Part shown: piece after piece, positions 3,858-15,950 of the stretch
Numbering within the stretch: position 1 is the stretch's first letter
How the letters are laid out: each line of letters begins with the position of its first letter
Assembly (NCBI GenBank): GCA_020628865.1
Contig: JAHDEJ010000001.1
Location: forward strand, 381,495 to 417,725
DNA: 36,231 nucleotides
Origin: Acidimicrobiales bacterium
Lineage (GTDB): Bacteria; Actinomycetota; Acidimicrobiia; Acidimicrobiales; SHLQ01
Direction of reading: 5' to 3'
Notes under the pieces: model-generated
The model's database searches: none
Seen by the model: only the letters and a program-made list of their open reading frames with translations
What the model was told of the DNA's origin: nothing
Translations under genes and position numbers: made by a program

Positions 3858-5198
3858 TTACTTGTTCTTGGCGAGGAAGCCCTCGTAGTTCCGCATCATG
3901 AGCTGGCTGTCGATCTGCTTCATCGTTTCCAGCGACACACCCACCGCAATCAGGATAGAGATTCCGATGAACCCGAAGCCAGCCGCCTGCAGGCCGCCGT
4001 CGTGGCCGGCGAGGTCGTAGCCGAGCGCCGTCATGATCAGGTTCGGCACCAGGGCCACGGCGGCGATGAACAACGCGCCGGGGAGGGTGATGCGGGTGAG
4101 GATGCGAGCGAGGTACCGCTCCGTCTGTGGTCCGGGGCGGATGCCGGGAACGAAGCCACCCTGCTTGCGGATGGTGTCGGCCTGCTTGGCGGGGTCGAAG
4201 GTGATCGCCGTGTAGAAGTAGGCGAAGCCGACGATGAGCAGGCCGAAGACGACCAGGTAGAGCACCGCGGTGGGGTCGACCAGGTTGTTGTTGACGAAGT
4301 TGCGGATGCTGTTACCCCAGCCGTTGTCGGGCAGGGCGACGGCGATCAGGTTCGGCAGGTACAGCACGGAGCTGGCGAAGATGATCGGGATCACGCCGGA
4401 CTGGTTGACCTTGAGCGGGATGTAGGTGCTCTGGCCGCCGTACTGCTTGCGACCGACGACCCGCTTGGCGAACTGCACTGGGATACGACGCTGTCCCTGC
4501 TCGACGAACACGATGCCGAGAAGCGCAATGGCGAGGATGATGATGAAGGCGACGACTGCGGTCCAACCTTCGTTCTGCTGGAGCGCAGAGAACTGGGCCG
4601 GGAACTGGCTGACGATCGCCGCCGTGATGATCAGCGACATGCCGTTGCCGATGCCCTTTTGCGTGATGAGCTCGCCCATCCACATGACGAGCGCCGTACC
4701 GGCGGTCAGGGTGAGCACGACGAGCAGCACGGTGGCGGCGTTGAACTTCGGCATGAGCACGAAGCCACCGCCGACTGCGGCGCCGCTGTTGAACAGGAAC
4801 GAGAAGCTCGTGGCCTGGATGATGCCGATGGCCACCGTCATGTAACGGGTCCACTGGGTGATCTTGCGCTGACCGACCGCACCCTGCTGCTGCCACTGCT
4901 CGATTCGAGGCACCACGACGCCAAGCACCTGCATGATGATCGATGCGGTGATGTACGGGAAGATGCCCAGTGCGAAGAGGGCAAAGGTCGTGAGGCTGCC
5001 GCCGGAGAACAGCTGGACGAATGCGAGGATTCCGCCCTGCTCGTCCGAGCTCTCACGCAGCGCCTGCACGGCGGCGACGTCGATACCCGGAGCCGGGATG
5101 AACGACCCGATCCGGTACAGCAGAAGGATGAACAAGGTGAAGAGGATCTTGTTGCGAAGATCCGGCACCCGGAACATGTTGGCGATGCGTGAGAACAC
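3858..5198 (-). CDS. secY: Preprotein translocase subunit SecY
   Basis: Forms the SecYEG protein-conducting channel of the plasma membrane. The 446-residue product has about ten membrane helices and typical SecY stretches: RNKILFTLFILLLYRIG at helix 1, IPAPGID just after it, IMQVLGVVVPRIEQW, the GQRRIPVQFAKRVVG cytoplasmic loop, and the C-terminal EGFLAKNK. The start is set at GTG 5198, preceded by AGGGAGACC, because the family begins just before the FSRIANMFRVPDLRNK segment. The frame runs 43 codons further upstream, but those codons overlap rplO and have no SecY similarity. Unlike most genes of the operon it is separated from rplO by about 75 bases. Confidence 0.97.
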   Translation of the reverse strand: MFSRIANMFRVPDLRNKILFTLFILLLYRIGSFIPAPGIDVAAVQALRESSDEQGGILAFVQLFSGGSLTTFALFALGIFPYITASIIMQVLGVVVPRIEQWQQQGAVGQRKITQWTRYMTVAIGIIQATSFSFLFNSGAAVGGGFVLMPKFNAATVLLVVLTLTAGTALVMWMGELITQKGIGNGMSLIITAAIVSQFPAQFSALQQNEGWTAVVAFIIILAIALLGIVFVEQGQRRIPVQFAKRVVGRKQYGGQSTYIPLKVNQSGVIPIIFASSVLYLPNLIAVALPDNGWGNSIRNFVNNNLVDPTAVLYLVVFGLLIVGFAYFYTAITFDPAKQADTIRKQGGFVPGIRPGPQTERYLARILTRITLPGALFIAAVALVPNLIMTALGYDLAGHDGGLQAAGFGFIGISILIAVGVSLETMKQIDSQLMMRNYEGFLAKNK

Positions 5199-13218: not shown

Positions 13219-13946
13219 TACTCTTCCTCCTCCGAAGCGGCGGCGGCTGCGGGAGCCTCATCGGCGCTGGTTTCGGTTGGGGCGGCGTCCTGCGGGGCCG
13301 AACGCTTGACGACCGGGGCCTTCTTGGCCTTCGGTGCCGGTGCGGTGGGCAGGGCGTCCTTGGTGAACACGACGTAGTCGGAGACGAGCACGTCGTAGGC
13401 GTTGAGCTCGCCGGTGGGCAGGACGTGAACGTTCTGCAGGTTCCGGAAGCTGAGGGCGGCGTTGGCGTCTTCGTCGGTGAGGACGAGGAGCACGCGGCCG
13501 TCGATGCCGAGTGCATCGAGTGCCTTGACGGCGTCTGCGGTCTTCGGTGCGTCGAAGCCGAAACCGTCGACCACGATGACCTTGTCGTCGGCGGCACGGT
13601 CGGACAGAGCCGAGTGCAGCGCCAGGCGGATCATCTTCTTGGGGGTCTTCTGGCTGTAGTCACGGGGCTTCGGGCCGTGGGCCACGCCGCCGCCACGCCA
13701 CTGCGGGGAGCGGATCGAGCCCTGACGTGCTCGGCCGGTGCCCTTCTGACGCCAGGGCTTGGCGCCACCGCCACGCCGTTCGGCGCGGGTCTTGGTGGAG
13801 TGGGTGCCGGCACGACGGGCGGCCAGCTGTGCGGTCACGACCTGGTGCATGACCGGGACGTTTGGCTCGATGCCGAACATCTGGTCGTCGAGGTCGGCCT
13901 TGCCGGCGCTCTTGCCGGCGGTCGTCTTCACGTCAACAGTTGCCAC
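13218..13946 (-). CDS. rplD: 50S ribosomal protein L4 with acidic C-terminal tail
   Basis: A 242-residue L4, which lines the exit tunnel and in enterobacteria represses the S10 operon. Core landmarks are [60 protein letters not shown] and the C-terminal [19 protein letters not shown]. The start is GTG 13946, sharing a base with the rplC stop (TAGTG). From residue 205 on there is an extra Ala/Pro/Lys segment followed by an acidic end [21 protein letters not shown]. That end resembles the L22 tail. Confidence 0.96.
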
Positions 13947-14590
13947 TACTGGCCTCCCTGCTTCTTGGAGGCGTTGCGCAGGAGGACGGTGCTGCCCTTG
14001 GGGCCGGGCACGTTGCCCTTGACCAGGACGAGGTTCTCCTCGGCGTTCGCCTCGACGATGGTGAGGTTCTGGGTGGTGGTCTTCTGACCACCGGAGCGAC
14101 CGGCCATCTTCTTGCCCTTGAAGATTCGGGCAGGGGTGGCGCACTGGCCGACGGAGCCGGGCATGCGGTGCACGCGGTGTGCGCCGTGGCTGGCTCGCTG
14201 GCCCTTGAAGTTGTGACGCTTCATGACGCCGGTGAAGCCCTGGCCCTTGCTGACGGCGGTTGCATCGACGAGTTCGCCTTCAGCGAGGACGTCGGCGCTG
14301 ATCTCCTGACCGATCTCGAACTCGCTGACGTCGTCGAGGCGAAGCTCGACGAGCTTCTTGCCCGGAGCGACGCCGGCCTTTTCGAAGTTGCCGAGTTCAG
14401 GCTTGATGAGCCGGTGTTCCTTCTGGGTACCGAAGGTGACCTGGACGGCCGAGTAACCATCCGTCTCGGGGCGCTTGATCTGCACCACACGACACGGGGT
14501 GACCTTTAGCACGGTCACGGGGACGATCTTGTCGTCACGCCAGACCTGCGTCATTCCCAGTTTTTCACCAACGATGGCTTTGGTGGCCAT
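13946..14590 (-). CDS. rplC: 50S ribosomal protein L3
   Basis: A 214-residue early-assembly protein of the large subunit. It begins MATKAIVGEKLGMTQVW and contains VSKGQGFTGVMKRHNFKGQRASHGAHRVHRMPGSVGQCATPARIFKGKKMAGRSGG, with the usual His/Gly-rich loop reaching the peptidyl transferase centre. The start ATG 14590 follows AAGGAA with 8 bases between. It is the first gene of this operon: the usual rpsJ is not upstream, and the sequence before it is an untranslated leader. Confidence 0.97.
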   Translation of the reverse strand: MATKAIVGEKLGMTQVWRDDKIVPVTVLKVTPCRVVQIKRPETDGYSAVQVTFGTQKEHRLIKPELGNFEKAGVAPGKKLVELRLDDVSEFEIGQEISADVLAEGELVDATAVSKGQGFTGVMKRHNFKGQRASHGAHRVHRMPGSVGQCATPARIFKGKKMAGRSGGQKTTTQNLTIVEANAEENLVLVKGNVPGPKGSTVLLRNASKKQGGQ

Positions 14591-14963: not shown

Positions 14964-15006
14964 TAGGTGCCTGGCACCTAAGCGGCCGTTAGGTGCCAGG
15001 CACCTT
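14964..15006. repeat. Palindrome pair, AGGTGCCTGGCACCT family
   Basis: TAGGTGCCTGGCACCTA (14964-14980) is a perfect 17-base palindrome around a central T. TAGGTGCCAGGCACCTT (14990-15006) is its near-exact reverse complement. The two units therefore also pair with each other across a GCGGCCG spacer (CACCTAA/TTAGGTG). The second unit is followed by TTGCGGAATTCGGGGTC, and a very similar tail follows the last palindrome near 26776. Confidence 0.85.
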
Positions 15007-15069
15007 GCGGAATTCGGGGTCTGGAACCGCGACGGAACGGTCACCGGTTCGTCATCAATCCGTTTTCAA

Positions 15070-15183
15070 CGAATCGGGATTCGCGCCGTTGGAGGTGTAC
15101 AGCGATGCACAGGACCTTGGCGGGAAACACCTGTGCGACGCTCCTGGGATCCGGTCAGTACTTGGCGGGCTTGGCCGGATCCC
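15070..15183 (+). ncRNA. Two-hairpin RNA-like element, copy 1
   Basis: The element has a 5' block CGAATC (15070) and GCCGTTGGAG (15085-15094). Hairpin 1 is GCACAGG/CCTGTGC (15107-15113 with 15130-15136), whose loop carries CTTGGCGGG (15116-15124). Hairpin 2 is GGGATCCGG/CCGGATCCC (15146-15154 with 15175-15183), whose loop carries the same 9-mer (15161-15169). The stems differ from those of copies 2 and 3 but pair perfectly, while the loops are conserved. That pattern is what a structured RNA shows. The strand is inferred from the terminator that follows. I know of no family with this arrangement. Confidence 0.6.
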
Positions 15184-15220
15184 ACAACATCTCATCTCTC
15201 TCCCCCCAATGAGAACGGCA

Positions 15221-15260
15221 GATCCTCCGGCGTGGCAGCGCCGGGGGATCGCTGTTTTTG
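15221..15260 (+). terminator. Rho-independent terminator downstream of RNA element copy 1
   Basis: GATCCTCCGGCG (15221-15232) pairs with CGCCGGGGGATC (15239-15250) over 12 bp with one G-T pair, a six-base loop and the tract GCTGTTTTT directly after. No protein gene precedes it on this strand, so it probably ends a short RNA. Confidence 0.75.
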
Positions 15261-15277
15261 GCCGACGTCACCCGTCG

Positions 15278-15368
15278 AGGTACCTGGCACCGAACGGTCC
15301 CTCAGGTGCCAGGCACCATTCACGTCGGAGGAGGCCTGGCACCTTTTGGGCGGAAAGGTGCCAGGCAC
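15278..15368. repeat. Palindrome cluster, AGGTGCCTGGCACCT family (diverged units)
   Basis: Four units or half units occur: AGGTACCTGGCACC (15278-15291, one mismatch), AGGTGCCAGGCACC (15304-15317), GGCCTGGCACCTTTT (near 15333-15347) and AAAGGTGCCAGGCAC (15354-15368). The last two pair with each other over GCCTGGCACCTTT/AAAGGTGCCAGGC with a six-base loop. The cluster lies between RNA element copies 1 and 2. Confidence 0.75.
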
Positions 15369-15434
15369 GTTCGGGGTTGCGGGAGCGTTCGGGGAATGAC
15401 ATGGAACCGTAATTGCCTGCTGCTCAACAGTCGG

Positions 15435-15560
15435 CGAATCGTGCCGTTGGAGTTCCACAACACGGGCACGGCACCTTGGCGGGAATGCCGAAACCCGAAA
15501 AACCGGGAGTCTCCCCTGCTACTTGGCGGGAACGGGGGAGCTCCCGGTTTGTTGCTTTTT
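15435..15560 (+). ncRNA. Two-hairpin RNA-like element, copy 2, ending in a terminator-like hairpin
   Basis: The 5' block is CGAATC (15435) and GCCGTTGGAG (15443-15452). Hairpin 1 is CGGG-CGGCA/TGCCG-CCCG (15463-15473 with 15486-15497), loop CCTTGGCGGGAA. Hairpin 2 is AACCGGGAG-T-CTCCCC paired with GGGGAG-CTCCCGGTT (15501-15516 with 15535-15549), with CTTGGCGGG in the loop (15522-15530). TGTTGCTTTTT follows directly, so hairpin 2 looks like an intrinsic terminator. About 60% or more of its bases match copy 3, with the differences concentrated in the stems. Confidence 0.65.
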
Positions 15561-15635
15561 CCACCAGCGGGAGGTGAGTCATGCTTCGTTGCGAGAGCGC
15601 CACGACACCGTCACACAACCGCGATCAAGCTTTGG

Positions 15636-15760
15636 CGAATCATGCCGTTGAAGTTCCTAACAACGAGCACGGCACCTTGGCGGGAACCGCCGCAGCTCGG
15701 AACCGGGAGTCTCCTCCGCAACTTGGCGGGAACGGAGGGACTCCCGGTTCGTTCGCTTTT
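15636..15760 (+). ncRNA. Two-hairpin RNA-like element, copy 3, ending in a terminator-like hairpin
   Basis: The 5' block is CGAATC (15636) and GCCGTTGAAG (15644-15653). Hairpin 1 is CGAGC-CGGC/GCCG-GCTCG (15664-15673 with 15689-15699), loop ACCTTGGCGGGAACC. Hairpin 2 has an 11-bp outer stem AACCGGGAGTC/GACTCCCGGTT (15701-15711 with 15739-15749) and an inner CCTCCG/CGGAGG, with one bulged T in the same place as in copy 2. The loop is CAACTTGGCGGGAA. CGTTCGCTTTT follows. It ends about 190 bases before the DUF3048 lipoprotein gene. Confidence 0.65.
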
Positions 15761-15950
15761 GGGCCGATCTTCTCGCTGGCCGCGACCGTCCGTGAGCGAC
15801 GGTGGGCGAATGCTCCCGCTGTGACACACGCACCGACAGGTGCGCGCCATCGGCTGCGGCGACGAATTAACTTGTCGGTTTCGTCCGTGGCCCTGACTAC
15901 GACGCAGACCCTCATCTGTCTCACCCCTGTCCCCACTTGGAGAAACCTCA

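Follow-up and report, generated by a model that had tools for sequence, protein, structure and literature searches.

The array lies between the divergent rplC and DUF3048 lipoprotein genes

The window, i.e., the whole 36,231-nt stretch of DNA analysed here, contains an intergenic region bounded by two divergent genes. On the minus strand lies rplC (L3; window 13946–14590), with which the S10-type ribosomal operon begins, and on the plus strand a DUF3048 lipoprotein gene starts near 15950. Between them there are three copies of a repeated element, composed of the following parts:

15066–15091, plus strand: copy 1, promoter-like block TCAA-N15-GCCGTTG; the homology between copies begins at TCAA
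15101–15142, plus strand: copy 1, hairpin 1 with the CTTGGCGGG loop at 15116–15124 (9-mer position, folding)
15145–15184, plus strand: copy 1, hairpin 2 with the CTTGGCGGG loop at 15161–15169 (9-mer position, alignment, folding)
15221–15258, plus strand: copy 1, separate intrinsic terminator with a 13-bp stem and TTTTT (-37.5 kcal/mol, z -5.5)
15424–15449, plus strand: copy 2, promoter-like block TCAA-N15-GCCGTTG (homology between copies)
15463–15497, plus strand: copy 2, hairpin 1 with outer stem CGGG/CCCG, inner stem CGGCA/TGCCG and loop at 15475–15483 (9-mer position, folding)
15500–15560, plus strand: copy 2, hairpin 2 with loop at 15522–15530, then TTTTT; doubles as an intrinsic terminator (alignment, folding)
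15625–15650, plus strand: copy 3, promoter-like block TCAA-N15-GCCGTTG (homology between copies)
15664–15699, plus strand: copy 3, hairpin 1 with outer stem CGAGC/GCTCG, inner stem CGGC/GCCG and loop at 15676–15684; has a competing fold (9-mer position, folding)
15700–15760, plus strand: copy 3, hairpin 2 with loop at 15722–15730, then TTTT; probable intrinsic terminator (alignment, folding)

The similarity between copies sets in abruptly at the invariant TCAA, and the 20-mers just 5' of it have only 7–9 of 20 bases in common. At the other end, the similarity of copies 2 and 3 stops in the U-run 3' of hairpin 2, while copy 1 has no U-run after hairpin 2 and carries a strong terminator of its own downstream. 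The combination typical of intrinsic terminators, a GC-rich hairpin followed by a 3' U-run, is found at 15221–15258, in copy 2 (TTTTT) and in copy 3 (TTTT); the terminator scan marks only a 5-bp piece of hairpin 2 of copy 2. Thus, the onset at TCAA and the ends at a U-run or terminator delimit a unit made up of the promoter-like block, two hairpins and a terminator. The plus strand is favoured, since no U-run lies 3' of the hairpins on the minus strand.

The same region also contains palindromes of the form GGTGCC(T/A)GGCACC (window 14966–15005, 15279–15317 and 15334–15366), often paired with a 26-nt spacing. They belong to a REP-like dispersed repeat separate from the array, with 37 copies in 1.08 Mb of this genome, 33 of them intergenic, and are present in several members of the genus and family as well. 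We did not see rpsJ directly upstream of rplC, and the region upstream of rplC varies across the genus.

The 9-mer occurs in three pairs and does not vary between copies

CTTGGCGGG was originally noted to occur six times, as three pairs 45–47 bases apart, and all six coordinates proved exact (15116, 15161, 15475, 15522, 15676 and 15722, plus strand). The distance between the paired loops is 45 nt in copy 1, 47 nt in copy 2 and 46 nt in copy 3. Three more occurrences on the plus strand, at 4185, 25891 and 31671, are distant from the array. The whole window thus holds nine against 0.73 expected, a number reached in none of 100 shuffles. None of the occurrences of CTTGGCGGG that we found in the literature concerns a bacterial RNA.

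The alignment of the three copies spans about 120 columns. Per 122 columns, copies 1 and 2 differ at 56, copies 1 and 3 at 51, and copies 2 and 3 at 23, whereas the 20 loop columns contain no difference at all. The probability of such a change-free loop block arising by chance is about 1e-6 for copies 1 and 2, 5e-6 for copies 1 and 3, and 0.01 for copies 2 and 3. The differences fall mostly in the stems, where pairing is retained.

Pairing is largely kept in stems that change

In minimum-energy folds CTTGGCGGG is placed in an apical loop in five of the six hairpins. The expectation that it always lies in a hairpin loop fails for hairpin 1 of copy 3, for which a competing GGCGG/CCGCC fold that buries the loop is preferred (-16.0 vs -13.3 kcal/mol). 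The loops measure 11–16 nt around CUUGGCGGG, which is largely single-stranded in the predicted folds, though partly paired in several loops, and the two hairpins of a copy are predicted to be 0–2 nt apart. A linear 9-mer that is constant in loops of variable size suggests recognition of the sequence itself.

For every copy, 199 of 200 dinucleotide shuffles fold less well than the copy itself (z of -2.7, -2.7 and -3.8). On a hand-drawn structure 83% of cells pair, a level not reached by any of 500 shuffles, and in six pairs both partners have changed, a count matched in 3 of 500; both measures exceed all slid controls and nearly all shuffles, although three paralogues are a small sample for covariation statistics. 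Between copies 2 and 3 only two changes are fully compensatory (34-65, G-C to A-U, and 85-106, C-G to U-A); the other stem changes are a single U-G to C-G replacement, one shifted bulge and one pair lost. The hairpin 1 stems first compared in support of changing but pairing stems were not homologous: an outer stem of copy 3, CGAGC, was set against inner stems of the other copies. It corresponds to CGGG/CCCG of copy 2, and the inner stem CGGC/GCCG is identical in copies 2 and 3.

The shared 5' block resembles a promoter

The two boxes TCAA and GCCGTTG are invariant and separated by exactly 15 nt in all three copies. The block had been taken for a part of the RNA; however, since the homology starts at TCAA and the boxes stand at a fixed spacing, it is more likely to be a promoter. 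No sigma-70 pattern matches within it, and elsewhere in the genome TCAA-N15-GCCGTTG occurs at chance level (6 other matches vs 8 in a reversed control).

A 15-nt spacing between boxes is characteristic of flagellar and WhiG promoters. The sigma-28/WhiG promoter has TAAA and GCCGATAA boxes, with at most two mismatches as the criterion (PMC8325347). We rejected the assignment of the block to this class, as TCAA-N15-GCCGTTGR has the 15-nt spacing but 3–4 mismatches to TAAA-N15-GCCGATAA. A search of 1.08 Mb of the genome, which encodes a WhiG-type sigma factor, gave no clear WhiG promoter. Two FliA/WhiG-type sigma factors score above the family cut-off (G000:C106:36085-36756, L259, and C54:94804-95466, L260). 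The former lies between xerC and rpsB/tsf, as does whiG in Streptomyces.

The array is found in a single genome

We built a covariance model from the three copies, which it recovers at 96–142 bits. Among 147 relatives it returned only its own copies, the matches with E up to 0.1, in 15 genomes, being at chance level, and with laxer filters it returned nothing else noteworthy from 19 genomes of the family. Likewise, only the three copies were returned from 397 genomes of the order and from 396 genomes of the phylum (all these sets overlap). The best outside matches were inspected and rejected, as they lacked the loops or fell within coding sequence.

A two-loop pattern was found only in these copies among 395 genomes of the class, and was absent from viral contigs. 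Two-loop matches in genomes of the order, and those among the matches listed for a wider set of contigs, were dominated by lysine/alanine-rich coding repeats. We found no relatives in viral contigs, phages or plasmids, and no further copies of the array in the same genome. The element is absent upstream of rplC in seven members of the genus and one other member of the family, in which similarity reaches to about 14800 and then diverges (two of these contigs stop after only a few hundred bases), and it is absent upstream of the DUF3048 orthologues of the genus. Searches of Rfam at gathering and relaxed thresholds gave nothing credible, the microRNA matches lying far below their own cut-offs, in agreement with the prediction that no known family has this layout.

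On present evidence, the array is restricted to one genome. The check that had been proposed as decisive, homologues with covarying stems elsewhere, yielded no homologue in the genomes searched, so that the argument for selection rests on three paralogues. A selected, structured RNA with invariant loops is still the best reading of these three copies.

A candidate array of tandem small-RNA genes

The array is non-random and real, and probably represents functional sRNA genes. The sequence itself shows that the element is repeated, that its loops do not vary while its stems pair, and that the copies start with a promoter-like block and end like terminators; transcription, action in trans, the partner and the function are inferred. 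We give about even chances to the reading that the copies are three tandem paralogous genes for trans-acting small RNAs, specific to this lineage, whose loops would be recognition sites for one partner. Each copy would be transcribed on the plus strand from its own promoter TCAA-N15-GCCGTTG, with predicted transcripts at about 15098–15258, 15456–15560 and 15657–15760, i.e., RNAs of about 160 nt (copy 1) and 105 nt (copies 2 and 3). Each RNA would fold into two hairpins displaying the same CUUGGCGGG. Hairpin 2 would serve as the terminator of copies 2 and 3, and the separate third hairpin as that of copy 1. Acting in trans, the RNA would offer its partner two identical loops, six over the whole array. 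The most likely partner would be an RNA-binding protein titrated by this sponge; alternatively, the loops could be antisense seeds for CCCGCCAAG. Of the two, we consider protein titration slightly likelier than antisense pairing. A protein-binding sRNA, a leader and a decoy had been proposed as roles; as a terminator ends or follows each copy, separate sRNA genes appear likelier, and the leader is disfavoured.

If transcribed, the array would be a natural experiment in which paralogous RNAs of one genome have drifted in their stems while keeping their loops fixed, an indication that the loop is the part that functions. At present it is an orphan candidate, without homologues in the genomes searched. 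It might open the way to an RNA-binding partner, or to an antisense system, in little-studied actinobacteria, and we know of no RNA system of such a kind described in this group.

Alternative explanations

If the RNAs acted by antisense pairing, the anatomy of the sRNAs would be unchanged and only the partner would differ: the unpaired CUUGGCGGG seed would pair with mRNA sites of the CCCGCC type, and with two loops on each of three genes both dose and avidity would rise. The invariance of a linear 9-mer within loops of varying size agrees with such a mechanism, which we consider possible, with perhaps one chance in a few. On the other hand, part of the seed is itself paired in several of the loops, and complementary 8-mers show no excess near 868 predicted starts, about one fifth of the genome (8 genes against a mean of 5.7, sd 4.3, for permuted seeds), although this is a weak test.

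It is rather improbable that the array is a DNA-level or decaying repeat, i.e., a palindrome or small element tandemly duplicated in this lineage without any RNA function. Its occurrence in one genome only, the presence of frequent REP-like palindromes in the same intergenic region and the variability within the genus beyond the rplC upstream sequence would all fit a repeat of this sort. Neutral decay, however, would not be expected to leave change-free loops amid 19–46% divergence, together with retained pairing, U-runs and a fixed two-box spacing, and the genome has no other copies.

The position of the array on the same strand as the DUF3048 lipoprotein gene, with the end of copy 3 about 190 nt before its start, would suit tandem regulatory hairpins or attenuators acting in cis as a leader. 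We regard this as unlikely, since each copy is closed by a terminator and has its own promoter-like block, the DUF3048 orthologues of the genus have no such element upstream, and there is no Rfam match. Very unlikely is a small-protein gene in copy 1 (GGAGG, then ATG at 15105 to TGA at 15212, 35 residues), despite a good Shine-Dalgarno spacing and the terminator downstream: its start codon and frame are missing from copies 2 and 3 and, with GCCGTTGG as the -10 box, the transcript would begin only downstream of GGAGG. The 35-codon frame is probably fortuitous. A coding reading of the copies in general was rejected as well, because the loop spacings of 45, 47 and 46 break the reading frame.

Comparison of the candidate sRNA array with known systems

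ANTAR-target RNAs, common in actinobacteria, consist of two tandem stem-loops with conserved loops, variable stems and a short linker; the loops are hexanucleotides with A1 and G4, and the linker is 2–25 nt (PMC8164766). The array resembles them in its two tandem stem-loops, conserved loops and variable stems, but differs in having loops of 11–16 nt rather than six-base A1..G4 loops, and in forming stand-alone units with terminators. No A1..G4 hexaloop fits its predicted structures, and the predicted linker of 0–2 nt falls at the lower limit of the ANTAR range or beneath it. The 6C RNA, an sRNA of actinobacteria about 100 nt long, bears the same kind of loop on both of its stem-loops (PMC4046766). 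Its two-hairpin layout is shared by the array; however, its loops are runs of at least six C, whereas those of the array are G-rich, in three tandem copies and without an Rfam match.

Sponge sRNAs of the CsrB/RsmZ type carry repeated identical hairpin loops in multiple copies and a terminal terminator. They act by sequestering a protein (PMC4005645). The array follows the same repeated-loop logic with only two sites per RNA, and lacks a GGA in every loop: CGGGAA is present in five of six, and hairpin 2 of copy 1 has CGGGCTT. That the array represents a new class of lineage-specific multi-loop RNA, whose CUUGGCGGG loops would sequester an actinobacterial RNA-binding partner as CsrB does a different one, is by analogy conceivable but doubtful. 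The array would belong with tandem multi-copy sRNAs with repeated loops rather than form a demonstrated new class. In Listeria, the genes of the LhrC sRNA family lie in tandem as paralogues, each with a terminator of its own and with loop motifs that recur; the C-rich loops of LhrC pair with ribosome-binding sites. The array resembles LhrC in its tandem paralogues, repeated loops and terminators, a likeness of layout for which we claim no relation in sequence, and its own loop is G-rich.
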